DNA of 58,843 bases from Methanolobus sp. (GTDB lineage: Archaea; Halobacteriota; Methanosarcinia; Methanosarcinales; Methanosarcinaceae). Location of the stretch: assembly GCF_030682845.1 (NCBI RefSeq), contig NZ_JAUXNK010000008.1, positions 1 to 58,843 of the forward strand, given 5' to 3'. Within the stretch, counting starts at the first letter, position 1. Each line of letters starts with the position of its first letter. The translations under genes and the position numbers were made by a program. This document shows positions 1,191-20,000 of the stretch, piece after piece. Under the pieces are notes generated by a model that was not told the origin of the DNA, made no database searches, and was given only the letters and a program-made list of their open reading frames with translations.

Positions 1191-2177
1191 TCATGCCTGC
1201 ACCTCCACACCATTGCTGCTGATCTTCATGTCCGCTATCTTTGTTCTGTGACCCACGGACCTGCTCCGGAACGCACTGATACGGATGTTGGTGTATGCAG
1301 GCTTGCGGTCCACGATCTCTGTCTTCCAGATCTCCTTGGCTGCAAACTGGCTTTTATCACCGAAGGGCCGGAGTATATGCCCGGGTTCTTTGTTGAACTC
1401 GCTCTCCGGCTGGTTCGTAACGACCACAACACCGCTGTTCAGGTATGCCCAGCCCTTGAGGTCCCCGAAGATAGCGATAAGCTTTAGCAGAGCATCGCCT
1501 TTCTGCTTCATGTTCATCCTGGCATATGCGGTCAGCACCGGGAACCCGATTGAGTCAATGATCACAACATCCACTTTCGGGAGCTTCTGTACGATCCTGT
1601 CGATCTCATCGATGATGGGGGTGTACTTGTACTCGCATCCTTTCAGGTACTTGATGTCAGTCTCTGTCAGGTTCCTCTCGGTATCCAGATAGAACACCTT
1701 CTTCCCAGAGGCAATAGCCTCCTTTGCAACGGCCATGGCGAACTTTGACTTGCCAGATCCCGTATCTCCGAACACTTCAAGGACATCGTTCCCGACATAT
1801 CCATGGATGAGGGCCAGTAGATGTGTCGTTGTAGCGTCATTTTCATAAGATGTTGATGCATTCTGTTCAGTGGTGGGCTCTTGTGGACAATCCTCCTTGC
1901 TTTGGTCGGCTATTGGTTCGTCTTCATGGGGTCCACCACTTTGTTCACATGAACTTTCTACAAGCATCTTGAGCTCTGTGAGTGTTTGGTCTTCAGGCAC
2001 ATCGTATTCCCGATGATCTTCGACCCATTTGAAAACCTCGTTCTTCTTGAAGTCCACACCCCAGAACACGAACTCGCCCGGGTTGGTACTGGCTTTTTTC
2101 CACACATCAGTGCCGTTGAGGGTGTTATATCCCCTCATATTAAGTATGGGAACAAGTGTTTCTTTGTCAAGTCTCAT
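1191..2177 (-). CDS. RecA/RadA-like P-loop ATPase
   Basis: This 328-residue protein has a Walker A motif GDTGSGKS and a Walker B strand VDVVIIDSIG, the core layout of RecA/RadA/KaiC-type ATPases. The N-terminal ~130 residues are acidic and unlike RadA; they include an FVFWGVDF segment and a low-complexity linker (roughly residues 80-120). I chose ATG 2175-2177 because GAGGT lies 8 nt upstream; a TTG five codons earlier is the alternative. It overlaps nothing, but starts 11 bp after the stop of a 57-residue gene, which suggests coupled translation. Archaeal viruses and plasmids often carry such a single-domain recombinase or replication ATPase. That function is inferred; the fold assignment is firm. 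Confidence 0.8.
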   Translation of the reverse strand: MRLDKETLVPILNMRGYNTLNGTDVWKKASTNPGEFVFWGVDFKKNEVFKWVEDHREYDVPEDQTLTELKMLVESSCEQSGGPHEDEPIADQSKEDCPQEPTTEQNASTSYENDATTTHLLALIHGYVGNDVLEVFGDTGSGKSKFAMAVAKEAIASGKKVFYLDTERNLTETDIKYLKGCEYKYTPIIDEIDRIVQKLPKVDVVIIDSIGFPVLTAYARMNMKQKGDALLKLIAIFGDLKGWAYLNSGVVVVTNQPESEFNKEPGHILRPFGDKSQFAAKEIWKTEIVDRKPAYTNIRISAFRSRSVGHRTKIADMKISSNGVEVQA

Positions 2178-2188
2178 GTTTTCAAACC

Positions 2189-2362
2189 TCAATACAGTCC
2201 ATGTGCCTCTCTCATTTCCTGATCAGAATGCATATAGTTCTCAAAACGGCGCTTCAAGCCGTCAATTTCGACTTCAAGGCAGCTTATTTTTAGAGACAGC
2301 TCTGCAAGCATGTCAAGGTCATCCTGCGGATACTCGGGCATTATTTCACCCTGGGTTGTCAT
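2189..2362 (-). CDS. small coiled-coil protein, 57 aa
   Basis: ATG 2360-2362 overlaps the stop of the upstream gene as TGATG, and the frame ends at TGA 2189-2191. The 57-residue product is acidic at its N-terminus and has a leucine-rich heptad-like stretch (LAELSLKISCLEVEIDGLKRRF) cut by few breaks, so a short coiled coil is likely. It lies in a chain of genes joined by overlapping stop/start codons, and that arrangement is the main reason to believe it is translated. No family is recognised. Confidence 0.6.
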   Translation of the reverse strand: MTTQGEIMPEYPQDDLDMLAELSLKISCLEVEIDGLKRRFENYMHSDQEMREAHGLY

Positions 2363-2622
2363 CACTGAGCACCTCTCTTCAGGATCTCATTAATTGCAGT
2401 CATTACTTCCTCAACGCCTCTGGAAACATCTGCATGTATCAGTTCCCGGATCTCATCACCGCTCTCCAGTCTTCTGGATATCGTGACCTGTGCATTTGGC
2501 TTGATATTACCTTTTGAATCGATCTCTGCACCGATCTTTGTTGATATCTCGTAGCCCTGAGTGTAGACTATGCGCGTTTCAGAACCCATCTTTGATGTTG
2601 GATTTGGGAGTATGTCGTCCAT
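2362..2622 (-). CDS. hypothetical protein, 86 aa, provirus operon
   Basis: ATG 2620-2622 overlaps the preceding stop (TGATG) and has AGGAGG nine nt upstream, which decides this start over a longer frame that would run through the upstream gene. The 86 residues form a predicted beta-rich N-terminal half followed by an acidic helix. No cysteines, membrane segment or known motif is visible. Its stop overlaps the start of the 57-aa gene in the same TGATG manner. Function unknown; co-expression with the RecA-like ATPase is likely. Confidence 0.7.
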   Translation of the reverse strand: MDDILPNPTSKMGSETRIVYTQGYEISTKIGAEIDSKGNIKPNAQVTISRRLESGDEIRELIHADVSRGVEEVMTAINEILKRGAQ

Positions 2623-2921
2623 CAGGTATTCCTCCTGAGATCCTTTACAACAATGGGCACCATCCCTGCCTGTGACCATCCTATCCGGGTCACATTCTTG
2701 CATGATGCAAGCTCTGCGGTTGCGACCATGTTCACAAATCTGGAGGCTCTGCCGGTTATGACCGCAAATACCTCGTTCTCTCCAGAGACCTTGCTTCGGA
2801 CCCACTGCTGGATCCTGGTCACGTCCGCAGCACCGATGTGTTTCAGGGGGTCGTCCTTCGTGTAACCTATTCCTGTTGGCAATCGGTCGAAATCGATGTA
2901 TACTTCAACTTCTTCTGTCAT
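2622..2921 (-). CDS. hypothetical protein, 99 aa, provirus operon
   Basis: The frame begins at ATG 2919-2921 with GGAAG upstream and ends in a TGATG overlap with the next gene. The 99-residue product opens with a strongly acidic beta-like segment (TEEVEVYIDFDR) and has a KVxGENEVFAVITGRASRF stretch. That pattern recalls small nucleic-acid-binding proteins but matches no family I can name. The longer frame extending to 3173 runs through the tRNA-like element and the zinc-ribbon gene and is rejected. Confidence 0.65.
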   Translation of the reverse strand: MTEEVEVYIDFDRLPTGIGYTKDDPLKHIGAADVTRIQQWVRSKVSGENEVFAVITGRASRFVNMVATAELASCKNVTRIGWSQAGMVPIVVKDLRRNT

Positions 2922-2983
2922 TTCATTCACTTCCTTTCGGTTGTATCTTAAATGCCTGCAGCATATGTTTTCTGCAGGCCAAT

Positions 2984-3029
2984 GCTCCGGCCGGGGCTCG
3001 AACCCGGAAATGACCCAGACGTCCCGGAG
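2984..3029 (-). other. tRNA-like T-arm plus acceptor stem fragment
   Basis: On the minus strand 3007-2991 reads as a perfect T-arm: CCGGG stem, a 7-nt TTCGAGC loop, CCCGG stem. The flanking hexamers CTCCGG (3029-3024) and CCGGAG (2990-2985) pair as an acceptor-like helix stacked directly on the T-arm. Only 16 nt (3023-3008) separate the 5' acceptor strand from the T-arm, so there is no room for D and anticodon arms. It lies in the only non-coding gap (2922-3048) of the operon. It may be a tRNA 3'-end att-site remnant, a minimal tRNA mimic, or a transcription/processing signal. The structure is visible; function is not. Confidence 0.5.
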
Positions 3030-3048
3030 TGGATGGAGGAGGTGACCT

Positions 3049-3195
3049 TTAGGGTCTGACCTCCTTATCGCATTCCGGGCAGTAGATGGGGCGGTTCTTA
3101 CACTGCCAGTCAACCTCGAAAATGTGCCCGCATTGGTCGCATATGCACTCGGCCACGATCCTTGTGCGTGCAAGCGGCATGCTGTTGATGGTCAT
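3049..3195 (-). CDS. zinc-ribbon microprotein, 48 aa
   Basis: ATG 3193-3195 overlaps the upstream stop (ATGA) and the frame ends at TAA 3049-3051. The 48-residue protein carries Cys pairs C-x4-CDQC and CPEC about 23 residues apart, the spacing of a rubredoxin-like zinc ribbon. Such mini zinc proteins are common in archaeal viruses and in haloarchaeal and methanogen chromosomes. It is probably a DNA-, RNA- or protein-binding adaptor. The assignment as a zinc protein is good; the role is unknown. Confidence 0.7.
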   Translation of the reverse strand: MTINSMPLARTRIVAECICDQCGHIFEVDWQCKNRPIYCPECDKEVRP

Positions 3196-6525: not shown

Positions 6526-7251
6526 TTAATGATAAAAGTACATCATTCTCATGGGCAGTCCTTTTGAATCGATTTCTGGAGACAAAGGAATAGATCTTAA
6601 TCCGCACTCACATCCTAGTTTTGCTGTTAATGCGGCCACCAATGCATCAAGAATATCATCTTTTGCAACATCTTTTCCTTTAAATTTAGACAACGCCTGA
6701 TTTACTATTTCATCAGTGCCTGAGTATATATTTCTTAAAACTTCAATGCGTTCCTTAAAGCCTTCTGACGTCTTCTTTGAAAAAACCATTGGCTTACCTG
6801 AAAGCATGTAAAAGCATAATTCAGGATGTATTTCCAAAACAGTGGATTGTGCTTCCACATTTTCGCTTAAAAATAGATCCACCTCACGTATTTTAGGTGC
6901 AATTGCAAAACTTTGTTTTGATAATCCTTTACTGGTATATTTTCGATTGATTTCAGAAGCACGTTCGTAAGAAAGTTCATAAGCAGCCTGTCTACATGGA
7001 GCATTAAAAACACTACTTCCTCTTGGTTGGCCTAGTTTCTTTCGAGCGTCTCTGTCGCATTGTCTCCCCAACTCGTCTTCTCTTAAACCAATTGGAGTGT
7101 CAATGAGGATATGTGAGGCGTCTCGATACCTATCCCAAATAGCTGAGATGTTTGGATACAAACCGATATCAAATTCTTCTTCACTTAATAATTGAATTGC
7201 AAACCACCCAGATGAACAACCATCAACTCCTACTACATTCATCTTTACCAT
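6526..7251 (-). CDS. DUF429 family protein in the defence operon
   Basis: The protein opens with NVVGVDGCSSGWFAI, the start of the DUF429 (predicted RNase H-like) fold, and has HILIDTPIGL, then RKKLGQPRGSSVFNAPCR, and a C-terminal DDILDALVAAL acidic patch. All are typical of DUF429. The acidic residues (first-strand D, IDTPIG, DDILDA) are where an RNase H-fold active site would lie. The start overlaps the end of the helicase gene by 7 bp; an in-frame ATG three codons later with AAGGG in front is an equally good start. Coupling to the methylase/helicase operon suggests it belongs to the same system, as a possible nuclease. No enzymatic role is known to me for this family. Confidence 0.75.
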   Translation of the reverse strand: MVKMNVVGVDGCSSGWFAIQLLSEEEFDIGLYPNISAIWDRYRDASHILIDTPIGLREDELGRQCDRDARKKLGQPRGSSVFNAPCRQAAYELSYERASEINRKYTSKGLSKQSFAIAPKIREVDLFLSENVEAQSTVLEIHPELCFYMLSGKPMVFSKKTSEGFKERIEVLRNIYSGTDEIVNQALSKFKGKDVAKDDILDALVAALTAKLGCECGLRSIPLSPEIDSKGLPMRMMYFYH

Positions 7252-9953
7252 CCCTTCAATAGATGCTGTTTTTTCTCATGGCTATCAAGAACCTTTGCAC
7301 AGGATTCCCAATCAATAGGGACCGGCTTATTGTACCTTATTTCAAAAGGATGTCTTTCGGGTATTCCATCAATGGTCTTCTTTACATCTTCTTTTTTATC
7401 CAATGCAACATTTACCCACACATCCTCAAGTACATCTGGAATCTGTCCAAAGAGCGAGTTGATCTTTTCAAGTCTGTCTGAAAGGAGTTCATGCACCCTG
7501 TCCTCTACTGAGCCTTTATAGCGCATATTGTAGATCCACACATCATCATAGACCTGACCAATGCGCTGTATCCTTCCTTTTCTTTGTTCAAGCCTTGTAG
7601 GGTTCCATGGCAAGTCAAGGTTAATGAGCGTACCAAGTGTTTGCAGGTTCAGACCCTCACTGGCTGCATCTGTTCCCAACAACAGTTTGATTGTGCCTTT
7701 GCGAACAAGTGTTTTGATCTCTTCACGTGATGCACGCCTGAAGGTGCCATTTTCTATGATTCCGGAGCGATTGCTTCCTGCATATATGCCGATTTTCTCA
7801 TCAACCAATTCTCCCTTCAGTTTGTCAGCAAGCCACTGTATCGAGTCATAGTATTGTGAAAATACTATGCAGCCTCGTTCAAGCCATCTGTCGTTCCTCA
7901 GAATATTCAGAACCTTTTCATACTTTGGATCAGTGTCCATATGTTCTTCAATTATCTCGGAGAATCTGGTCAAGAGGCTTCTTTCTTCTTCCGACATGTT
8001 TTCAAAGAGCTCACTTCTCTGGACATCTTCTTCCTCTTCTTCACCGTCAAATTCCACTTCCTTGCGAACTCCAAGCATTTTATTTGCCGTGACCTTTCCT
8101 GCGTATAATGAGCTTCCAACACGTCTGAGGAGAAGAGTCTTTAGGAAACCTGTGCCTTTTGCCCTTTGGCTGAGTAACTGACAGAACTCTTCCGCAGCTT
8201 TGTATGCATCTTGAAGGTATATTGGAAGAGGAATTGCATCTCTTTCATCCTCTCCGAACAGCTTAACCTCTATCTTCTGTAAGTAAGGCTCTCCGGTTTC
8301 AGGGTTCCTGGCGTTCTCAAGGAAATCTCTTGTTCTTCGTATAATGTGCCTGATGTAAGGATTATGATTCTGGAAAAAGTCATTTTTCATCCTTTCAAGT
8401 CTTGACCTGTCAGGGTAGCTTAAATCCATCCACCTTGAAGGAGTAACTACTGCTACGGAATCTTCAACTGTAAGGGAACGCCTGAGGATGACGTAATCCA
8501 TACCTTCAGAAACCGGAGGCAATGGGTTTGCTATCCACTTGAAGAGTTCATTGTCCGTGTCCTGAATAGTTCTGTTTCCTTGGATGATGTCCAGTGATCC
8601 AGACGCTTCATTTCTCCATTTGCTGAACTTATTGCCCAAGACGGATTCATTTTTACCGCCTGCAAGTATGGACAATAGGTCGTATGCTTCTATGGGGTAG
8701 AGCTGCACAGGCGTTGCGGTTGCCAGAAGCATGCTTTTTGTGTTCCCCGCGATTCCTTGAAGGAAAGCAAGAAGATTGTTTGGTTCAGCTCTTTCATTCT
8801 CATGTGTAGGGCCGAGATTCTTCCTTCTTGCCCTGTGGGATTCATCAACGATGATGCAGTCGTATTTCTTTGAACATAGCTGGTCGGGTATGGTTGACCT
8901 CTCGCTACCATAGGAATGGATTATCAGGCCATAAGATATAATCCCAATTCTTCTAGGACACTTCAGTATGCCTTCTTCACCGTATTTCGGGTATTCAATA
9001 CCCTCTTCATCTACCCACCTGCCATTATCCCATACTGCGGAAGGAAGGTCCAGATGCTCTTTCATCTCATCCTGCCATTGCCAGCGCAGGGTTGCAGGTG
9101 TGAGGATCAGTATGGGCTTATCTCCAGTAAGAGCGATCAACTGCGCGGTCATTGCAAGTTGCAGGGTCTTACCAAGTCCAACCATGTCTGCAAGGACAAA
9201 ACGTGCTCCATGCTCTGTTTGATGGGCCTTGAATGCAATGTCTATGAAGTATTTCTGATGCTCCCAAAGCCCGAGTTCATTCCTGTAAACCGGGCTTTCC
9301 ACAATCGCGGATGCTGCCTCCGGTTGTTTCTGCCATTCGAGGAGTGATGGTATAACTTCGCGCTGTGCTATCCTTCCGATATCCTCAATGATGAACTCTG
9401 CAAGCACCTTATAATCCGGATGGTTCCACAAGGCATCGAACTCTTCCTGTACCCAGTTCACGGCATCGTCAGAATCATCTTCCCAGACAAGTTCATAGTT
9501 GCGTTTCCAGGCAGACAGTGTCTCATTTATGCTTCCCATGAATGCAGTTTTTGTCCCGTCTGCTTTTGTTATGACTCCGGCTTTTCCATGAATTAATCCG
9601 AATGCTTTATCGGGAAGCACTCTTACCTGGAGTTTCCCAGACTTCAGATACTTGTAAAGTTTTGCAAATCTTCCACGAGCATTTTCATCAATCTTTTCAG
9701 GTTCCTCTGCACACCACTCTTTCCTTATAGCCGCAAGAGCCGCACGTGCAGTCTTCACATCCTCAGGTTCAAGTTGCGAGTTACACAGAACACGAACAGT
9801 CCCTTCAACCGAATCAAGCGCCTCTCCCGCAACTTCAAGAATAGATGAGCTGAAATATCCTGCTATCCGGTCATACTTCTTAGCACCTTCGAGGCGCTTG
9901 TTAAGGAACGTTGCATCCAGGGGTTCCCTGCGGGATGAGAAGCGGTTGATCAT
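7245..9953 (-). CDS. phospholipase D-like domain/SNF2 helicase, defence operon
   Basis: The 902-residue protein joins two domains. Residues ~1-200 form a phospholipase D-like unit with an HGK...D...GSIN motif near 123-150, the single HKD half-site used by PLD-type nucleases. Residues ~230-830 are an SF2 SNF2-type ATPase: GLGKT (~260), DESH (~370), TATP (~413), and motifs V-VI (GTDAASEGLNLQ, RIQRIGQ) near 765-800. PLD-helicase fusions of this kind (COG0553) occur in anti-phage loci. It sits between the DUF1156 methylase (36 bp upstream) and the coupled DUF429 gene. It is likely the DNA-translocating and possibly cleaving effector that discriminates unmodified invading DNA; that is inference from the context. 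Confidence 0.85.
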   Translation of the reverse strand: MINRFSSRREPLDATFLNKRLEGAKKYDRIAGYFSSSILEVAGEALDSVEGTVRVLCNSQLEPEDVKTARAALAAIRKEWCAEEPEKIDENARGRFAKLYKYLKSGKLQVRVLPDKAFGLIHGKAGVITKADGTKTAFMGSINETLSAWKRNYELVWEDDSDDAVNWVQEEFDALWNHPDYKVLAEFIIEDIGRIAQREVIPSLLEWQKQPEAASAIVESPVYRNELGLWEHQKYFIDIAFKAHQTEHGARFVLADMVGLGKTLQLAMTAQLIALTGDKPILILTPATLRWQWQDEMKEHLDLPSAVWDNGRWVDEEGIEYPKYGEEGILKCPRRIGIISYGLIIHSYGSERSTIPDQLCSKKYDCIIVDESHRARRKNLGPTHENERAEPNNLLAFLQGIAGNTKSMLLATATPVQLYPIEAYDLLSILAGGKNESVLGNKFSKWRNEASGSLDIIQGNRTIQDTDNELFKWIANPLPPVSEGMDYVILRRSLTVEDSVAVVTPSRWMDLSYPDRSRLERMKNDFFQNHNPYIRHIIRRTRDFLENARNPETGEPYLQKIEVKLFGEDERDAIPLPIYLQDAYKAAEEFCQLLSQRAKGTGFLKTLLLRRVGSSLYAGKVTANKMLGVRKEVEFDGEEEEEDVQRSELFENMSEEERSLLTRFSEIIEEHMDTDPKYEKVLNILRNDRWLERGCIVFSQYYDSIQWLADKLKGELVDEKIGIYAGSNRSGIIENGTFRRASREEIKTLVRKGTIKLLLGTDAASEGLNLQTLGTLINLDLPWNPTRLEQRKGRIQRIGQVYDDVWIYNMRYKGSVEDRVHELLSDRLEKINSLFGQIPDVLEDVWVNVALDKKEDVKKTIDGIPERHPFEIRYNKPVPIDWESCAKVLDSHEKKQHLLKGW

Positions 9954-9989
9954 TGTAACAGTCCTAGTCCTTGAAATTACTTTGTTTGC

Positions 9990-12881
9990 TCATATGTGAT
10001 CCTGCTCAACAACAACTGATAGTATCTTTGCAGCCGTAGAGTCTTCCTGCCACTGCCCCATGGAATCATTCATTCCAAGAGCAGCAAAGTACCTGAGAAG
10101 CTCTACGATTTCCTTTCTCTTCTCCCAGTACCCGGGATACTCACGTAGCCAAACTTTCCCTGCCGCAGTATTCTCTTCCTGCCTTGTCTGCCGGATAGCA
10201 AACAATAAGTTCCTTACAAGTGACGAAGAGAAACCTTCTCCACCAACATCGCGATCCTTGAATTCAGAAGCTGTCTTGAGTCTTGTCTCATTAGCCTTCA
10301 CGCTCTGCTGCAGGTTCTTATATTCTCGAATACCAAAACCACGTGCAAGTTCCTGATAAGCTCCGGTCCTATACTCGCCATGACTTTCAAGCTCAAGTCC
10401 CTTTAGATAAAACCTCTCTTCAGGCATAAGCTGCTTCCACACCCATGAGTCGATGCCCACTGGTACAAGATAATCGCAGGCAATCTTCACTGCGTTCTCA
10501 ATGACTCCTTCCAGAGGGTTCCTCTCACCCTTTCCTCTCGCACGGCTAAGTTCGCGCTCGATATCAATGTCTTCTATTTGCTTATAACGAGTAAGCACAC
10601 GCAGAGCTGCTGCATAAGCCGCAAGCTGATAGTCAGTATCTCCAAAGTTCGGATCTTCCTTGTCATCAATTTCCAGCATTGAATCAAGTTGTGTTTTTAC
10701 TTCTTTTTCAACTTCAGGATAAATCTCATCAAGAAATGCAACATCTTCTGATATTTGCTTGCGCAGCACAAGTAGGACTGTTCCTTGGACATAATTACCC
10801 ACTTTCAAACCTGAACTAGTCTCAGTAGATATACACCATGCTGCTGTGACCTGTAGGCCCGCTGCCCATAGTATCATTGCAAGATCTGCCCACACGTTTG
10901 CATCCTTATGGGTGAACATTACAATCTGAGAGCCATTGTCGGGCATGTGTGTTGTGAGATTTTTATATACTTCAACCATTCCTTTACGGAACTCTTCATC
11001 AGATCCTTTAATGGCCAGTGCTCTTTTAGAGTCAGTGTACCATTTCGGAAAAAGCCCCTTAATGGGCTTTTGATACCATGCGAGGAAAAACTCAGTCAAT
11101 TCATGATAGTTGATAGCATCTGCGTAGGGAGGGTCTGTTATCCAGTAATCACAAACATGAGTTAAAACCCTAGAGTCAAGAACATGAACATTTTTATTAA
11201 CTGTGATTTGTTCTTCTTTAATATTTGAAAACCAAGCGTTTTTTAGCATCTCTACACCTCTTCCAGAATAACTATATAATGTGTTTAAAGCTTGGTTACT
11301 GAATGTATTGGCTGGCTTATCTGTCTGATTTATCCACATACACAATTTTGAGTTCCAATCCAAACATTTGCCCAAATTTAAAAGAAGTAATGTTTCTTGT
11401 CTTTGATTGAATTCTCTCTGATTTGCCTTTTCATTTAACAATCCCTGATATAACAGTTGTCGTGGAGTAAATAGATGGTGCCAATGCGTCCACCCTCTTT
11501 CCCTTATAGGCTGATCATTATTATAGCCACCCTCAATCTTCATGCTAGGCAAAAACCCTTTAATCCGCCATTCTGAAAACTTATCTTTTATGATTGATAG
11601 GGTCTTATCTTCCCGCTTTAAATCGTGTTCATCTGGTTCACAAAAGTGCCATTTTACCTGCTCACAACCATATAAATCTTTTACATTTTCCATCCACCTA
11701 ATGCAGTAAAGCCTTTCCTGAAATATATCATCTGGGCGAGGAACAATATCATTGTTCTCCCAGAGTCGCAGACCACTAGCGTGTTCACGTCGGATTGCTG
11801 AGATTGGAATAGGTGACTGGTGTCCTGGACAGTCTATATTGGGGCAAACCATTCCTTTTGGAGTTATCGTCCCCGAATCACGAGCTCTTTTTGACTCCTC
11901 TAAATTTGCTAATCTAATATGAATGTGAAAGCGTTTGTTCTGTGAATCAGGTTCTAGTTCTGCAATTACCTTTTGCATACGCTCAGCAATCGATAAAGAG
12001 GATAGAAGTGGTACTTTCCAACCACATTCTGGACATACTATTTCATTACAATACAGATAGGCATAGCCACGCCACCCCTTCTCATTATGCTCTATATTCC
12101 ATTCTGTAATCTGCTGGTCAATAGCCTCATAGACTTCCGTCTGGGCATTTTTCACTTCATCAACTACTTCTTTGCCACCACCAATTATGTTCAATGCCGA
12201 CCAGGTAAGAAGTGCTGCAACGGAACTCAAATCGGAGCCAAACACATCACATCCAACCCTTGCAGCCTCGAATGGAACACTGCCTCCTCCACAAAAACAA
12301 TCTCCAACGATAGGACGTTCACCAAATTGTCGTACCCCAAGCTCTTCAACAAGTTCCGATATCTTGGATGCATGTGTACTCAGATGTGCATTGATATCAC
12401 CCCATGCTTTCAAAGAAGGGCCCTCTATTTCTTCTGGACGACAACAATACTTCAGGCGTTCATCATACCCCATGCGCATGAAAACCGTGCGCTGGAGTCC
12501 GTCCTTATCCTCGCGTGAGAGCCCCCGGCGCAGTTTTCCATTATCAAAATATATTGCTTTTTCACGGGATGAGAGATATACTTGCAATTCGCTTGCAGGG
12601 ATAGACGATTTTTTTCTCTCCCACATACCTTCCTCATCCATAGTCAGAAGCTTAAGGAAAATTTCACGGTCTTTTTTAGGATTATCTGTTGCTGGCAAAA
12701 GTAGACCTAAAACTGCCGCTCTTACTAGAATCAGTGGCTTGCGTCCCCACCATTTTCCTAATGGCTGCAAGGTTTGGCTCTGTGCACTTTTTCGCTCCTT
12801 ATAGCTCTCCTTTGAAACCTTGGAAACAGGGAATTGTGATTCGATAAACGATTTTTTGAAAGGAACGTTATTAACAGACAT
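9990..12881 (-). CDS. DUF1156 DNA methylase (COG1743-type)
   Basis: The N-terminus (SFIESQFPVSKVSKESYKERK, then LGKWWGRKPLILVRAA) is the DUF1156 signature. A SAM-binding GDCFCGGGSVPFEAARVGC lies near residue 192 and the catalytic DPPY (ITDPPYADAINYHELTEFF) near 583, so the enzyme is a predicted amino-methyltransferase acting on DNA adenine or N4-cytosine. Two zinc-ribbon-like pairs (CNEIVCPEC; CPNIDCPGH) are inserted between them. I chose the ATG at 12879-12881 because GGAG lies 7 nt upstream; an ATG five codons earlier is possible. COG1743 methylases take part in BREX type 3 and related islands. Here it follows DUF499 and DUF3780 and precedes the PLD helicase, and it probably marks self DNA. 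Confidence 0.9.
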   Translation of the reverse strand: MSVNNVPFKKSFIESQFPVSKVSKESYKERKSAQSQTLQPLGKWWGRKPLILVRAAVLGLLLPATDNPKKDREIFLKLLTMDEEGMWERKKSSIPASELQVYLSSREKAIYFDNGKLRRGLSREDKDGLQRTVFMRMGYDERLKYCCRPEEIEGPSLKAWGDINAHLSTHASKISELVEELGVRQFGERPIVGDCFCGGGSVPFEAARVGCDVFGSDLSSVAALLTWSALNIIGGGKEVVDEVKNAQTEVYEAIDQQITEWNIEHNEKGWRGYAYLYCNEIVCPECGWKVPLLSSLSIAERMQKVIAELEPDSQNKRFHIHIRLANLEESKRARDSGTITPKGMVCPNIDCPGHQSPIPISAIRREHASGLRLWENNDIVPRPDDIFQERLYCIRWMENVKDLYGCEQVKWHFCEPDEHDLKREDKTLSIIKDKFSEWRIKGFLPSMKIEGGYNNDQPIRERGWTHWHHLFTPRQLLYQGLLNEKANQREFNQRQETLLLLNLGKCLDWNSKLCMWINQTDKPANTFSNQALNTLYSYSGRGVEMLKNAWFSNIKEEQITVNKNVHVLDSRVLTHVCDYWITDPPYADAINYHELTEFFLAWYQKPIKGLFPKWYTDSKRALAIKGSDEEFRKGMVEVYKNLTTHMPDNGSQIVMFTHKDANVWADLAMILWAAGLQVTAAWCISTETSSGLKVGNYVQGTVLLVLRKQISEDVAFLDEIYPEVEKEVKTQLDSMLEIDDKEDPNFGDTDYQLAAYAAALRVLTRYKQIEDIDIERELSRARGKGERNPLEGVIENAVKIACDYLVPVGIDSWVWKQLMPEERFYLKGLELESHGEYRTGAYQELARGFGIREYKNLQQSVKANETRLKTASEFKDRDVGGEGFSSSLVRNLLFAIRQTRQEENTAAGKVWLREYPGYWEKRKEIVELLRYFAALGMNDSMGQWQEDSTAAKILSVVVEQDHI

Positions 12882-12901
12882 GTTTTCTCCAACCATTAGA
12901 A

Positions 12902-13540
12902 TTAATTAAAATCAAGTAAACTGCCCTGCTTTTTCTTTTCCTGATCTATGCTCTTTTCCTTATCGTCCAGATTTGCAATGAGCCCTACGCGCTGCTCTGC
13001 TTTGGAGGAAGTTATGGGATTGTCACACAGGGCAAACCTGACCGCTGCTCTCCAGCCCGTGTTCCTTCCTCGCGATGCCTGACCTGTTGCGGCATTTGTC
13101 ATCGTATAAAGCCACCAGCGTTCTTCAGGCAGAAGGCCAAGCCAATTGGCTACTGCTGCAGGTATGCGTCCTGGGTCTGCATCCTCGATAGCCCAGCCAA
13201 GAAGAACAAGCTCTTTCCCGAACAGGCGGGAAACAGGTGTCAGACCTCTTCCCTTCCAGCTGCCTTTCTTGTATCCCATTTCCTTCAGGCGGCGGTTGAA
13301 CTCTGCGGAAACTGCATCTGCTATCAAATCCCACTTGACACGGGGAAGAGTTACACGCAGCCTCTCATCACTCTCATCCTTCACTGCGTGTATTTTACCT
13401 TTCCACATCTCACTATTCCATGACATATGCTCTGATATCTGCACATCTCCCGTCGGGGATATTACTGATACAAGAAAATAATGCTCCGACTCCGCCGGCT
13501 TAAACCCAAAACCCTCTACAACAGAACTTTCACGATTCAC
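12902..13540 (-). CDS. DUF3780 family protein
   Basis: The 212-residue protein matches DUF3780 in its conserved GFGFKPAESEHYFLV start, the VSRLFGKELVLLGWAIEDAD block and the LLPEERWWLYTMTNAATG block. The start is GTG 13538-13540, overlapping the DUF499 stop as GTGA with GAGG upstream, so translation is coupled. DUF3780 has no known activity but occurs with DUF499 and DUF1156 genes in defence islands. No membrane segment or catalytic motif is evident. It probably acts as a structural subunit or as a partner of the methylase. Confidence 0.85.
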   Translation of the reverse strand: MNRESSVVEGFGFKPAESEHYFLVSVISPTGDVQISEHMSWNSEMWKGKIHAVKDESDERLRVTLPRVKWDLIADAVSAEFNRRLKEMGYKKGSWKGRGLTPVSRLFGKELVLLGWAIEDADPGRIPAAVANWLGLLPEERWWLYTMTNAATGQASRGRNTGWRAAVRFALCDNPITSSKAEQRVGLIANLDDKEKSIDQEKKKQGSLLDFN

Positions 13541-16500
13541 TGACTTACCTCATCCATATTGATGTTTGCTTTCTCTGCATCTGCAAAGTCCTTCATGTCC
13601 TGACCTGTTGTAAACTTAATGCTTCGTGCATCGATGCTGACCTGTCCTTCAGAATAGATCTCCCTCATGGATTCAACGAGTTTTTCAATCTGCTCACCTG
13701 AAAGTTCAATTCCTGAATCTACATTAAGCTCTATCCAGCTCTTGCCTATGATCGATAACCGGACCTCAGGCACACGAGCCTTGTACTTTTTAAGGCGGCT
13801 TGTGAAATCAAAGCTCTCTTTTGTAGATTTAATACTGTGATTATGTTTCCATGTAGCAGGCTTATCCAAGCTCAACCCTGGTTTATCCGCTTTCCAGTCA
13901 ATATCTATCCTGATCTGCTCAGATTCAATCCCCTCTTTTTCGGCAATTGCAAGCACCACTCTTACAGACCTATCTATCTCAAAAGGGCTTGTATATAATC
14001 CACCGGCATTCTTGGGATTTGAACCATCGGTGGTATACCTTATAGTAGCACCGGCAGGAGCTGCTTTAAATTCGACCGTTTTCCCTTTTCCGTTATCAAG
14101 GACTCTTTTCTTCAAGGTAACTGAATTGCTCCATTTAATGGCTGGGCCCGGTTCATGCACACCCTTAGAGTCAATACAAAGGAAAGAGGCATGCATATCC
14201 TTTATTAAGAAATTCTGGAAATCCTCTACCTTAGCAGAAGCAGTAGTTGCTTCTCCCCCGACATCATAGTAAACGGTATCCCCGTTGACAGGCATTACTT
14301 TTAATGTAACTTCCCCTGTATTCTCATCCTTGTTCCATTCCATGACCTGAACAGCTGTGGAAGGTGCTGGAAAAGGACCTTTATCAACATATCCACCATC
14401 CATCCTCCACTGCTCTTTCCTTAACATCTCATCTTTCAGGTTGTCAAGAGCATTAGGATGGTGCCATTGCCATTTGGTAAGGATAGCTGCACGTTTCTTT
14501 ATCTCAGACCACTGCATATTCTGCTGTGTAAGCAGACGCTGTTCGCACTTCTTCCTGAATGTATCTCCATCCACTTCAAGGGTGAACTTCTGCTTATCAG
14601 CAAGAGTGGTTCGTATAAGGTCCTCTCCACGACACTTATTGCCTTCAAAATTCATGGTCAGGTCAGTAACGCGCAGTTCATCATTGTGCGGATAATGCAG
14701 ACGAGTAAATGTCTCTCTGGCAGTGCTTAACAACCTGTGAATAATGTTATCCTTAAGGTCCTGGGCAATGATCCTCTGGGTATCGTCAGACCTTACACCA
14801 CTGCTATCCATTTCAGACAGAATGGATTTGATTGCCTTGTACTCTTTGCCTACAGAGATCAAGTTGTTCATAGTGTCCCTCTGACCGGAGAGGAAGCACA
14901 CACGATTTTTATAGTCAAGAGCCTCATAGAATTCATTTAGGTGCGGATGCAAAGTCCCACCGTGTGGCTCATATAACACTAATTTGATCTTATCCTGACT
15001 TATTGTAATATCATCAACTGCAGGAAGTACTTGAAGTTCCTGGTAACAGTCCTTTCTCTCAGGTATAAAAATAGCCTGCAGGAACTCCTTCACATCTTTT
15101 AATGCCGCTTCCCTACTATATGACTCTGCAAGTGACCTCAAGCGGGCCACAAGATTCTCTGTATTCTTGAAATACACTTTTCCATTGTTTGCCCTATGCA
15201 GATACCAACAAAGCTGACTCTCAAGAGTGGAGATCATATCTGGAAGAGTAGTAAGGTCTCGCCCAGGAGCTGCAATATCAGTTATAATCTCAGATGTTGT
15301 CAGACCAAGCACGGAATTCTCAACATTCGCAAGAGATGCCATCAGGATCAATTTAGATATATCCTGTGCATCAGAACCACCACGTTTCAAATCCTCCATC
15401 TCTGCAACTGAATCCCCATCTGATGCAATATCATGACTTATAGCATTTCCAAGGGTAGGGTTGATGAGATTAATCTCTGCACTCATCTCAGGACTATTGA
15501 GGTCGATCATATGAGGATGGATAAGTAATGCGTACTTGGCACCATCTGATTCATAAAGATGTGATACTAACACACGCATAAAACGAATGAGTCCTCTTGT
15601 CTGCTGGAAGCCGGGATTCTCCCTGAAACGTGCATAAAGATCCTTTATCGCAGGATGGAATGGGTACGAATCCCTTACCTGCTGGACAATTTTATCGGGC
15701 GACACGTGTGTCAGGTCCATTTGTCCTGCTTCTTTAATGATATCCCCATATGCCTGTGCAATCTGCAGGATTGCATCATCATCAGGAAGCTCTTCGAAAA
15801 TGCGCTTCTTGAGAATCTGATATACCTCGTCAGTATTAAGCCCGACAGGCTCAATGTTCACAGAACCTCTTCCGACTTCGTTTTCAAAATCGTGAAGTGC
15901 CTGGCTTATCTGTTGACTTCCGCCTTCATAGGTTGCCTTCAGGTCTGAAAGTACAATGGAAACCTGCGATAGCTCTTCTGTTCCAAGTGCAACCAAAAGA
16001 TTTGAAAGTGCGGTCTTTGTAACCACGGAAAGGTCAGTGTTCCCAACGGTTTTAGACTTCGCATTCTCAAAATAAGGCGGTAGCTCATCAAAAAGGATCA
16101 ACAGCTTTTGTCCTTTCAATAGATTGATCCAGGCACTTTTGCCAGGGGCCTGCAATGGAGAATAATAATCTTTAAAAAACTCTCTTTTTCCAACCTGTTC
16201 GGCAATAGATCCCCATATGCCATAGGGTGCGTCACTCTCACGCCCGTTGAACACGACAACTTTGATAGGACCAAGAACATTCTTGCCAAAACCTTCGCCC
16301 ATCACCTTCTCTCTTATTTCAGGATATTTGGCAAGAAGGGCAAGTCCAATCATACAGTGAGTCTTACCGCCGCCCATTGCCTGGGTCAACTTGAAAACAG
16401 AAGAATCGGATTCATTTGCAAATCTCCTGAAAACCTGTTTAAAAAGAGACTTCATTCCTTCAGTGAGATAGTTCTCTTCAAAGAAATCATAAGGATTTAT

Positions 16501-16599
16501 CTTGTCCTCAACGACATCCGAAATATCAAGGACCACATCCCTGCGATTTCTGTCAAAAATAGAATCACGGGCTTTACAGATGTTTTGAATAGGTTGCAT
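13537..16599 (-). CDS. DUF499 P-loop ATPase with chitobiase-like C-terminal domain
   Basis: The 1020-residue protein is the first gene of the operon. Walker A is QAMGGGKTH near residue 75 and Walker B is LLILFDELPPYF near 170, as in the DUF499/COG1483 AAA+-like ATPases. The long middle is helical. Around residues 846-905 there is a beta-sandwich segment, IRYTTDGSNPKNAGGLYTSPFEI, which matches the chitobiase/beta-hexosaminidase C-terminal (Ig-like) pattern. ATG has GGAGGG five nt upstream. A related group of ATPases (BrxC/PglY type) drives BREX; this one may likewise be the large motor or sensor of the system. The exact job is unknown. Confidence 0.88.
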   Translation of the reverse strand: MQPIQNICKARDSIFDRNRRDVVLDISDVVEDKINPYDFFEENYLTEGMKSLFKQVFRRFANESDSSVFKLTQAMGGGKTHCMIGLALLAKYPEIREKVMGEGFGKNVLGPIKVVVFNGRESDAPYGIWGSIAEQVGKREFFKDYYSPLQAPGKSAWINLLKGQKLLILFDELPPYFENAKSKTVGNTDLSVVTKTALSNLLVALGTEELSQVSIVLSDLKATYEGGSQQISQALHDFENEVGRGSVNIEPVGLNTDEVYQILKKRIFEELPDDDAILQIAQAYGDIIKEAGQMDLTHVSPDKIVQQVRDSYPFHPAIKDLYARFRENPGFQQTRGLIRFMRVLVSHLYESDGAKYALLIHPHMIDLNSPEMSAEINLINPTLGNAISHDIASDGDSVAEMEDLKRGGSDAQDISKLILMASLANVENSVLGLTTSEIITDIAAPGRDLTTLPDMISTLESQLCWYLHRANNGKVYFKNTENLVARLRSLAESYSREAALKDVKEFLQAIFIPERKDCYQELQVLPAVDDITISQDKIKLVLYEPHGGTLHPHLNEFYEALDYKNRVCFLSGQRDTMNNLISVGKEYKAIKSILSEMDSSGVRSDDTQRIIAQDLKDNIIHRLLSTARETFTRLHYPHNDELRVTDLTMNFEGNKCRGEDLIRTTLADKQKFTLEVDGDTFRKKCEQRLLTQQNMQWSEIKKRAAILTKWQWHHPNALDNLKDEMLRKEQWRMDGGYVDKGPFPAPSTAVQVMEWNKDENTGEVTLKVMPVNGDTVYYDVGGEATTASAKVEDFQNFLIKDMHASFLCIDSKGVHEPGPAIKWSNSVTLKKRVLDNGKGKTVEFKAAPAGATIRYTTDGSNPKNAGGLYTSPFEIDRSVRVVLAIAEKEGIESEQIRIDIDWKADKPGLSLDKPATWKHNHSIKSTKESFDFTSRLKKYKARVPEVRLSIIGKSWIELNVDSGIELSGEQIEKLVESMREIYSEGQVSIDARSIKFTTGQDMKDFADAEKANINMDEVSQ

Positions 16600-16638
16600 T
16601 TAGACCCTCCAGCGAGATTTGGACATAATGTAACGTTA

Positions 16639-16655
16639 AAATATTTTTATTTAAG
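16639..16655 (-). promoter_or_regulatory. likely promoter of the DUF499-DUF429 operon
   Basis: On the minus strand GCTTAAATAAAAATATT forms the only TATA-like stretch within 100 nt of the DUF499 start. A start site about 25 nt downstream leaves a short leader containing GGAGGG. No second promoter of this quality is seen inside the operon. Confidence 0.4.
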
Positions 16656-16705
16656 CAATATCCTTTATATCATAAGAGAGTTTCGATTTTTGCTCTGTAG
16701 AAATA

Positions 16706-17000
16706 TCATTTTACATCACCATCCAATTTAAACTCTGCAAAAACCGGATAATGGTCTGATACTGCCACAGTCTGCTCTTCTGTAAGATTGTATTCCAAAT
16801 CATGCATGGACACGCCGAACTGGCCGTATAAATCCGATTTATCTGTGAGGATAATCCTGTAAAAGGTGTATTCGGTGAACTGGATGGTTGGGTCCTCGGT
16901 GATTGTCCTGTAGGATGATATTAGAAGAAAGATCAGTATTTGTGTCAGCTACACAGCCTAATGAGAATAAGAGTAGGATGAGACTGGCGAAAATAAACAT
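16706..17000 (-). pseudogene. remnant of a lipoprotein endonuclease/exonuclease/phosphatase (EEP) gene
   Basis: From ATG 17000 the frame encodes an intact lipoprotein signal, MFIFASLILLLFSLGC, then ends after a short stretch. In the next frame the sequence continues as a DNase I-like C-terminus (TFYRIILTDKSDL ... VSDHYPVFAEFKL) to TGA 16706-16708; SDHYPV is the conserved EEP His-Asp end motif. So the start and end of a secreted nuclease gene have been joined out of frame around 16900, with about 200 or more codons missing. The ATG abuts the helicase stop at 17001. The piece may be a scar of the event that inserted or removed neighbouring cargo. Confidence 0.75.
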
Positions 17001-20000
17001 TCATCGCATCTCCAAATGTTCCTTTATCCTTGTAATCACATTTGTTGGTGTTTCCCTGACTGCTTTTGCTGGTACTCTTAGTACTCTAAAACCTTGCCCT
17101 TTAAGGTACTCATCACGAATATCATCTTCTTTGATTGACTCCATTGTCTGAATCACTGGATACGACTTACCTTGGATTTCTACAAATTCTTGATCACCAA
17201 TGCATTGAATATAGACTATTTCATTATTGATCTGTATATATCTGCGGTTTACGTCAAATTTAACCGTATATTTTTCTCCATTGACCCTAACAAAGTAGTG
17301 TTGCTTTCCATCGACTTCAATTACCAGTTTTACGCCGAGCTGGTCATTGATAAGCAAAAAATCAACTTCAATACCGCCAATCATCACATGTACTTGTGGA
17401 ATTAAACCTTCTATTATCAGCCAGCTGAAAAGTTCTAGTTCTTCTCGGCTTGTATCTCGCAATAGCTTGACTTTATCGATATAATCGACAAGATTGCATA
17501 GTATACCGCCAGTACTTTTGCAATATTTAAAATTTCCTACAACGAATAGAGCTTCACGCGCCCTTGTTAAGGCTACATTGACAAGATTGGGAGAGTTTGC
17601 AAAATTTGTGGCTCCCTTTTCGATTCCATTGGATATGACCGAGCTGAAAATAATTATGTCCCTTTCATCACCTTGAAACTTATGTGCAGTTCCAACTGTT
17701 ATTTCACTGTTCAGATTTAGCTCGTTAAGTCTTTTTTCAATTCCTGCAACCTGTGAAGCAAAAGGAGAAACAACTCCAATACTTAGATGTCCTAGACCCT
17801 CATTATTTCTAAGATCTTGTATCAATTCACATACAGCTTTTATCTCTTCAGGATTGATCCAGCTCTTTCCGGCATTACCTCTAAGACACATTCCTGAAAT
17901 ATTTCTGCCAAAGATACCGGATCTAACTGAGGCTGCATTTTCCTGCGGTAATTGCTTTTTGAGTTTCAAACGCTTTTGGTAGATATAATGGTTTGAAAAA
18001 CCAATTATTAGGGGATGGCTTCTATAATGCTCGACAAGTAAGATTATGTCAGCTCTGCCATGTGGGAGACAGCGCAATCCTATTTGGAATACATTTGTTT
18101 TGCTATGGCCAAGTAACTCTAGCCACTTGGAAACTCCATGCTTAAAAGCAAGAGCCATCTCTTTTTGGGGATTAATTTCAGGTATTGCAGGTAATTGATC
18201 CGGATCTCCAATTATAACTATTCTCTTAGCACGGTAAATAAGTGGCAGAATATTGGTAAGTGTGCACTGAGATGCTTCATCAATTACAAGTATATCAAAT
18301 ATTTCTGGCACCATTGGTATTGACTGCGGAGAAAGGGCTGTTGTAGTCCAAACAGGTACCGCAATAAGTGCTTTTTGATACTTATCGGCTGGAAAATCCT
18401 TAACCTTCTCACGTGTTCTTCTGTAGTGATTATAAAGATCATCAACACTATCCAAAATAGCTCTTTCCTCTTTGATCCTATCTTCCCACCCTGCTTTTGC
18501 ATGAGTAAAAGACAAAATCTCTAGCTCGGAGTCAAGTTTTCTGATTTCTCCTTTTATGCGCTCTGGGTCAAAATCAACAAAGAGATCATTCAAATCATCT
18601 ACTGGCCAATAAACGACTGAATCTTTAATCAGTGGTAAAATAACAGATTTTATTTTTTCTTTGCCCATCGGTTCAGGAACCTTGTTCATAGCTACTGTTA
18701 GGTATTTGATTGCCCACTCATAGACATCTCTCATCTCTTTGATCTTAACAGCAAGAGTTGTCTCGTAGCATTCCTTCCATTCTGAGGCTATTTTATTGCA
18801 CTCGCTTAAATGGTTCCATAAGATATCATCTTGCTTGGGAAGCACGGTGGTATCAAGTTTTTTTAGAGCTAAAGATGGCGGTTTTTCATGCCACCATGCA
18901 AAAATTCTAACTTTATCAGAGGGTATCTGTTCAATTATTCTAATATAGTTTTGATATTTACTCTCAGTTTCGATTGCATCTGTCCATATTGATATGAAGT
19001 TATCGAATCTTGTAGTGTTTAACGTACGTTGAGCGATTGTTACATTTTCTTGTGTAGGAGAAGGAAGTAAGGACAATACTGTTTTTGCAAAGTTCATATC
19101 ATTTGAATTCATCCAGGAATCAAGCAAAGGGTTACTAAACAATAACCTCTGGAATTCCTGGGATCCCGCAGTGAGGTTTAAAAGAAGTAGATCGGCTTTT
19201 TGTTTTGTTTTCCAAGCTTCTGCGGCCTGCAAAGATATTTTTTTCTTAGATTCTATTTCCTTGATGAGCATTGACAGTGAGCTGATATCTGTAATATTCA
19301 GTTCCTGAGATAAACCCAGATCTAAAGCTTTACTTTGAAGAGATATAAAATCACTTTCAATTTCATTCCAGGTAAGCTTGTGAGCGCTCCATTCTTTTTG
19401 AATCTCGATCCAAAGGAGACTTTTATCTATTGCTTCATTTAATGACTTACGTCCCTTTTGTTCGTTTTCACTAAACTGAGTCCAAATATTAACTGGATAA
19501 TAGTTGCGAATCTCAACCTCGATTTTTCTCAGTCGACTATTGGCCTTTTTCCTCTTTAATGTGCTAATTATGCCGCCTGGAATTGAAGAAAGATAAGCGT
19601 ACTCCGTTTTCCATTTTGTTATTTTTTCCAGATCATAGTTTGCGTTTTCTGACAAACCCGCTTGTACAAGCTCTTTCCTTTTATCATCATATCTATTTTT
19701 GATTTCGTTTATGATTCTGTGCTGATTTGAAAATCTAGAAAAAGCCATTTGACTCTCTTGCAGTAACTTGTCTGCTTTGACTGCCCATTCAACAGCGTCT
19801 TTTTCTCCATGCCATTGGAGGAACTCCTCTTTCATCTCCACTGGACTAAGGTATTCCTGAAGAACTTGATTAAGTATAGAATGGTATGCCTTAAGCCAGC
19901 TTTCAAACTTTTTAGGACCATGTTCTGTAAGAATCCAACTAAAATTGTTATAATCATTGGGGTTTAAACCCATTTTTTGTAATGCTGTATTCCTCTCTTT

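Follow-up and report, generated by a model that had tools for sequence, protein, structure and literature searches.

The window, by which we mean the whole stretch of 58,843 nt that was analysed, comes from a Methanolobus genome assembled in 110 contigs and includes an early operon read from the minus strand. The genes of this operon overlap, and by the list of open reading frames the 127-nt interval 2922-3048 is its only real gap, as the first-pass annotation had said. On the minus strand, which is the coding strand of the operon, the gap holds a tRNA-like element of 48 nt, between a gene for a Zn-ribbon protein and one for a protein of 99 aa (Table 1). The surroundings of the element are tailed proviruses, with genes for terminase, Prim-Pol/DUF5906 primase and RecA-like ATPase.

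Table 1. Coordinates in the window of the tRNA-like element, its parts and its neighbours.
Feature	Position	Strand	Remark
Upstream Zn-ribbon gene, 48 aa, ending CPECDKEVRP	3049..3195	(-)	sequence
H1 hairpin, just 5' of the element	3037..3065	(-)	encloses the stop codon (3049-3051) of the Zn-ribbon gene
tRNA-like element, 48 nt	2983..3030	(-)	2983 = discriminator position; 3030 = position 1 (A opposite C2984)
Acceptor-like stem, 5' strand CTCCGG	3024..3029	(-)	pairs with 2985-2990
Mini-arm GAC/GTC, 3 bp, 6-nt loop (predicted)	3012..3023	(-)	replaces D and anticodon arms; no covariation among close relatives
T-arm CCGGG TTCGAGC CCCGG	2991..3007	(-)	both-sided changes among relatives in 2/5 pairs
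Acceptor-like stem, 3' strand CCGGAG	2985..2990	(-)	
H3 hairpin GCCTGCAG/CTGCAGGC	2954..2979	(-)	starts 3 nt past the discriminator
Downstream gene, 99 aa, Csx3/Crn3-like (suggestive)	2622..2921	(-)	
Next operon gene, TYTQxYEI..KVGAEIDSKGNIKP protein	2362..2622	(-)	conserved in relatives
RecA/AAA-like operon gene	1191..2192	(-)	

The fold that had been noticed on first reading, a T-arm with a TTCGAGC loop on an acceptor-like stem, is indeed present on this strand. A 5-bp T-stem with the canonical T-loop is stacked on a 6-bp acceptor-like stem, and on the 5' side the spacing between acceptor and T-arm is 16 nt. Positions 1 and 72 are an A/C mismatch that is fixed throughout the window group. 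With 16 nt between its stems the element does not have the D and anticodon arms of a functional tRNA, ARAGORN called no tRNA at it, and Rfam gave no match there at gathering thresholds. It does have two of the features of a t-element, namely an acceptor stem stacked on a T-arm with a canonical T-loop, placed at a junction between genes of the same strand.

The folding energy of the element alone is at chance level (z -0.63, with 46 of 200 shuffles equal or better), and for the whole gap in the ten close sequences described below z ranges from -0.10 to -3.54. With regard to the arrangement of the stems, a strict descriptor gave 11 matches that were neither tRNAs nor the window element in 838 kb of strand, so that the chance of such a match within 300 nt upstream of a given gene is about 0.4%. 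When the 300 nt upstream in the window were shuffled, none of 500 shuffles matched the score of the element. A coding explanation was also tried and rejected: in five of the ten close loci ORF 2622-3173 reads on through the element, but in the other five its frame is broken there, and there is thus no conserved coding region.

The 99-aa downstream protein was searched for in 185 genomes of the order Methanosarcinales, and there were 12 matches in 10 genomes, ten at 85-100% identity and two near 30%. The element is kept at all ten close loci, on the same strand and between the same two genes, and a scan of named genomes with a DNA pattern found it in Methanolobus profundi (two copies), M. halotolerans and Methanolobus sp. 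Soudan_28. Compared in pairs, the loci are on average 86% identical in the element; the corresponding means are 64% for the upstream flank, 71% for the downstream flank and 67.5% for third codon positions in the gene that follows. Pairing is retained in 107 of 108 base-pair cells of the close group, and two T-stem pairs are altered on both sides in close relatives, as compensatory changes. The shuffle control on this pairing is modest (10/500 for the covariation score and 68/500 for pair types), and five of the six acceptor pairs are invariant within the group.

A covariance model, R1, built from the ten close loci recovered the same ten at high score across the order, and two further matches at 26 bits (L057 and L058, the low-scoring matches examined) are tRNA-Glu genes. 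In 392 genomes of the phylum the model found nothing new at high score, the other matches being at 24-30 bits as against 69-77 bits for the known loci.

The two loci near 30% identity each have a tRNA-like element of their own just upstream, with a different acceptor, and in diverged viruses (99-aa protein about 16-31% identical) acceptor and T-arm elements of unrelated sequence occupy the same operon position. Profile A2 of the 99-aa family matched 24 places in 19 of the 185 genomes, and at 15 of these the gene is preceded by a clear element or tRNA. These are the ten close loci, two places in G075, one each in G145 and G127, and contig C51 of the window's own genome. The element of G099 is borderline (22 of 500 shuffles score as well). 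By the descriptor there is no element at eight places, which are G119, G153, G157, G174, G139 and three partial matches in longer frames; for the partial matches, G157 and G174 this is the result of the strict scan, with G157 and G174 also read by eye. At G119 a 7-bp stem and an arm with a 10-nt loop can be read by eye, an arrangement that fails the descriptor, and G153, G157, G174 and G139 are Methanosarcina relatives of the gene without the element. The T-loop pattern was widened to allow TG and TC after the G127 element had been noticed by eye, and the strict version misses it.

Contig C51, in the window's own host genome, carries a sister virus whose RecA-like protein is 72% identical to that of the window, and it has complete tRNA genes, Thr(TGT) and Gln(TTG), where the element would stand. 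The G145 element scores 27 bits against the Rfam tRNA model, for which the threshold is 29. In a collection of viral contigs profile A2 picked out a single one, L094, whose element and gene are those of G145, and there was no match there for the 99-aa protein alone, for the DNA pattern or for three other single proteins. Searching with the RecA-like gene led to a Methanosarcina-like provirus in G154, which has a divergent copy of the 99-aa gene and two elements, with 87 nt and 12 of 12 pairs in one and 54 nt and 11 of 12 pairs in the other; the first of these directly precedes a different gene of the operon. The same search led to G168, in which neither gene nor element was found within the 1.6 kb upstream that was examined.

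When eight elements are taken together, 92 of their 96 pairs form, and none of 5000 re-dealings of the 3' arms reached that number; the G099 element was included, and G119 (loop not of 7 nt) and C51 (complete tRNAs) were left out. The length between the stems ranges from 13 to 87 nt across lineages, with no common sequence there. We are confident that the element is a selected tRNA-like RNA. The presence of whole tRNAs, or of other shrunken ones, at the same spot in relatives suggests that it is a viral cutting signal by which the message would be split.

The complete tRNAs of C51, and the near-threshold tRNA score in G145, are also what might be expected if the element were a viral tRNA gene in decay and without function today. 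We consider this improbable, as conservation of the 48-nt form exceeds that of third codon positions and of the flanks, compensatory changes are present, and the same half is retained in several lineages, where decay would not be expected to halt.

The first-pass annotation had proposed, as one of three possibilities, that the element is an att site or a remnant of one, of tRNA 3' origin. There is a resemblance to the 3' end of tRNA-Glu, which extends to 23 of the last 25 nt in the C42 copy, and to 20 of 25, the best for any host tRNA compared, in the window. The comparison took in the loci of 30 of 44 tRNA matches, which with their neighbours gave 31 distinct sequences, both tRNA-Glu included. 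Looking for an identical 3' half among the tRNAs of the host had been the proposed check, and as no segment is exactly identical the att proposal falls, and that of processing does not. The proviral regions compared have a common body that ends in a tyrosine integrase, and this adjoins tRNA-Leu in G120, tRNA-Thr in G107 and tRNA-Ser in G116. The G120 provirus, the only one found to be bounded on both sides, is bordered by 16-bp copies of the 3' end of tRNA-Leu, and the element lies about 17.6 kb inward, which refutes an att role there; attL for G116 and G107 was not found within 70 kb. In all integrated copies the flanking genes are joined unbroken through the element. We therefore regard integration at the element, past or present, as very improbable indeed.

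The 99-aa protein is known to us from its predicted fold and from profiles. In VIA-align its AlphaFold model (pLDDT 80.6) has Csx3/Crn3 as first-ranking match, with a Z of about 6.1 and so below 8; five Csx3 entries are among the eight best matches, and SAVED, CARF and actin-like entries rank next. Foldseek gave no match to the model at E 0.001. The window protein did not match NCBIfam TIGR02579 (Csx3), for which the best relative has 13.5 bits against a cut-off of 55.4, and phage records held no match to the protein, but other members of its family have weak matches to Csx3 and SAVED profiles. Csx3 is a ring nuclease of type III CRISPR systems (excerpts of PMC7371418), and viruses use SAVED ring nucleases, of which AcrIII-2 is one (excerpts of PMC12751052). 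The likeness to Csx3/Crn3 and AcrIII-2 lies in the top VIA matches and in the weak profile matches of relatives, and the difference in the Z below 8 and the absence of Foldseek matches. It is on this basis that we suggest a possible Csx3/Crn3-like identity for this early viral protein and its family, and an anti-defence role is given here as a lead only.

All ten close sequences fold in the gap to H1, element and H3, although in L037 the arms of H1 partly pair elsewhere. A hairpin equivalent to H3 starts 0-3 nt after the discriminator in the window group, C51 (14 bp), G119 (12 bp), G099 (21 bp) and G154 (6 bp). In a shuffle test, designed after the hairpins had been noticed, none of 300 shuffles was as good as H3 in four elements, and 2 of 300 were in the window. 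It is weak in the G116 copy of the window group (44/300) and in G145 (36/300), and by this test was not found in G127, G075 or the first G154 element; the rows for L130, L135 and L170_tls1 failed, and L134 was omitted with its sister L135 standing for it. For H1 the same test gave significance in some copies only (G116 2/300, G099 0/300), the values elsewhere being 19/300 in the window, 20/300 in G119, 30/300 in G145 and 37/300 in G154. H1 ends 0-1 nt from position 1 in some copies, with no single-stranded leader. As a separate observation, the regions upstream in L042, L102, L103 and L113 have long hairpins with large C-rich loops beside the tRNA-like elements, in several lineages, and the arms of these are alike in sequence (GCCCGCAGCGGT, GTCCGCAACGGT and ACTGCAGGCGGG).

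On balance we think it probable that the element is a viral t-element that works by excision. It would be a tRNA-derived structure, in this lineage cut down to acceptor stem and T-arm, within the polycistronic early message of a group of tailed viruses of Methanosarcinaceae. Acceptor stem and T-arm are the half of a tRNA that is recognised by RNase P and RNase Z. Such a reading by these enzymes is consistent with excerpts of PMC12630138. Cleavage by host RNase P ahead of position 1, and by RNase Z behind the discriminator, would take out the 48-nt piece, and as hairpins often lie close on both sides of the element its excision would leave mRNA ends capped by hairpins. H1 would then form the end of the upstream message, and H3 the start of the downstream one, which has the Csx3-like gene as its first gene; the hairpins would slow decay from the new ends, and the level of Csx3-like mRNA would be uncoupled from that of the preceding genes. 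Where H1 stands directly at position 1 RNase P could be hindered, and it is possible that RNase Z alone acts. Further points against excision are the fixed A1/C72 mismatch, the invariance of most acceptor pairs in the close group, the relatives of the gene in which there is no element, the G119 arrangement and the borderline G099 score, the copies in which H3 is weak or missing, and the later widening of the T-loop pattern. What the sequences show is the structure, its conservation and fixed position, the complete tRNAs that replace it in one sister virus, and its absence together with the gene in two others, in G115; that the message is cut, its ends protected and expression altered is what we infer. 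Of the three possibilities that had been raised, a substrate of RNase Z or CCA enzyme that processes the mRNA is thus the best supported, its cleavage being a prediction from sequence comparison, and the term tRNA mimic was apt as a description, there being complete tRNA genes at the same position in a related virus.

The element might alternatively stay in the message as an uncut leader that controls how the Csx3-like gene is translated or how stable its message is, perhaps through binding of the ribosome, of a tRNA enzyme or of the Csx3-like protein. In the close group it is always immediately 5' of that gene, and a search with the RecA-like protein found two further close viral relatives, in G115, that lack both gene and element, the Zn-ribbon gene abutting the next operon gene. 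The upstream stop codon lies inside H1, and the structure of AfCsx3 was solved with ssRNA bound (3wzi), which would both suit a leader. However one of the G154 copies precedes a different gene, and the interior of the element differs wholly between lineages, in length as well as sequence. Since only the half read by the enzymes is common to the lineages, and there are tRNAs at the same place in C51, excision fits better, and we think an uncut leader unlikely.

A further possibility is that the mini-tRNA once released acts in trans, as a CCA-tailed decoy for a tRNA-binding host enzyme or a defence nuclease, and to this we would give a slim chance. The structure would suit RNase Z and CCA enzyme, there is a possible anti-defence gene in the same operon, and mascRNA and plant t-elements are known to be released, the t-elements with CCA tails (excerpts of PMC4919922 and PMC11658184). 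However between lineages no sequence is kept outside the pairing positions. The usual target of tRNA-cutting defences is the anticodon arm, and the element has none. A broader proposal joins several of these ideas: in a group of tailed archaeal viruses, excision cassettes of hairpin, tRNA or mini-tRNA and hairpin would free from the early message a separate, hairpin-capped mRNA for a Csx3-type anti-defence protein, and the freed 48-nt mini-tRNA would have a second role in the infected cell. We put this forward as a doubtful proposal; if true, the freed mini-tRNA would be among the smallest natural substrates of its kind.

With regard to known systems, tRNAs punctuate polycistronic RNA in mitochondria and in rRNA operons. 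The C51 virus, with complete tRNAs between genes and the position fixed, resembles these, whereas the window version is not a functional tRNA. Haloferax is in the same phylum as the host of the window. In Haloferax a t-element ahead of 5S rRNA is cut by tRNase Z, and a crRNA flanked by t-elements gave mature RNA (excerpts of PMC4326828), and in plant mitochondria t-elements associated with mRNAs are cut and CCA-tailed but uncharged (excerpts of PMC11658184). In both cases, as proposed for the window, a tRNA-like structure at a transcript junction is described as a substrate of RNase P and RNase Z that defines RNA ends. The window element differs in being in a viral protein-coding operon, in having a 48-nt acceptor and T-arm form flanked by hairpins, in being replaced by complete tRNAs in a sister virus, and in that its processing is predicted from sequence.

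In MALAT1 a stabilising 3' structure precedes the cut, as H1 precedes the window element. The best Rfam match over the whole element, which was unprompted, is to the corresponding family, mascRNA-menRNA (RF01684), at 26.7 bits and E 0.001, below the gathering score of 42.5. mascRNA is a tRNA-like RNA freed by RNase P and RNase Z (excerpts of PMC4919922), but it comes from an animal nuclear lncRNA, is longer and has an anticodon-like arm, and no common descent is implied. The nearest laboratory counterpart is the RNase P model substrate Aab9T, which likewise consists of acceptor and T-arm, with a 5'-side bulge of 9 nt as against 16 nt in the window element, and human PRORP alone cuts this substrate at very low efficiency (excerpts of PMC12630138).

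In the literature searched, judged mainly from titles and the openings of abstracts, we found no report of such a tRNA-like element in an archaeal virus. The means by which archaeal viruses adjust the ratios of the proteins encoded on one long message are poorly understood. Here whole tRNAs, near-tRNAs and a 48-nt remnant occur at one and the same place in the operon, as if a tRNA had been pared to what the processing enzymes need, and this is a natural series with which to test how little archaeal RNase P and RNase Z require of a substrate. The element may also be useful as a ready-made processing tag for methanogen genetics.

Some other features of the proviruses may be recorded. In G000, contigs C104, C42, C51 and C80 are pieces of at least three related proviruses in one host genome, as judged by several copies of the RecA-like and 99-aa genes. 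The G120 and G107 proviruses (L063 and L064) are in two genera and at different tRNA sites, and have structural proteins that are mostly 84-100% identical and integrases that are 76-77% identical, a likeness hinting at recent transfer between the genera. The region 6526-21455 of the window is a probable cargo region of the provirus. By PADLOC models it holds a defence cluster, with PLD helicase, DUF1156 methylase, DUF3780, DUF499 and a large helicase protein like MkoC/MkoA, and the large genes found at the corresponding end in relatives are different ones. The G154 provirus has two solitary repeat-like sequences, G154:C1:1773634-1773665:- and G154:C1:1776826-1776857:+, which are 2 mismatches apart and have no other copy within 3 mismatches in that genome, and the first sits upstream of the Csx3-like gene in L170. 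They look like a type I CRISPR repeat, and we note them as candidates for RNA-based anti-CRISPRs.
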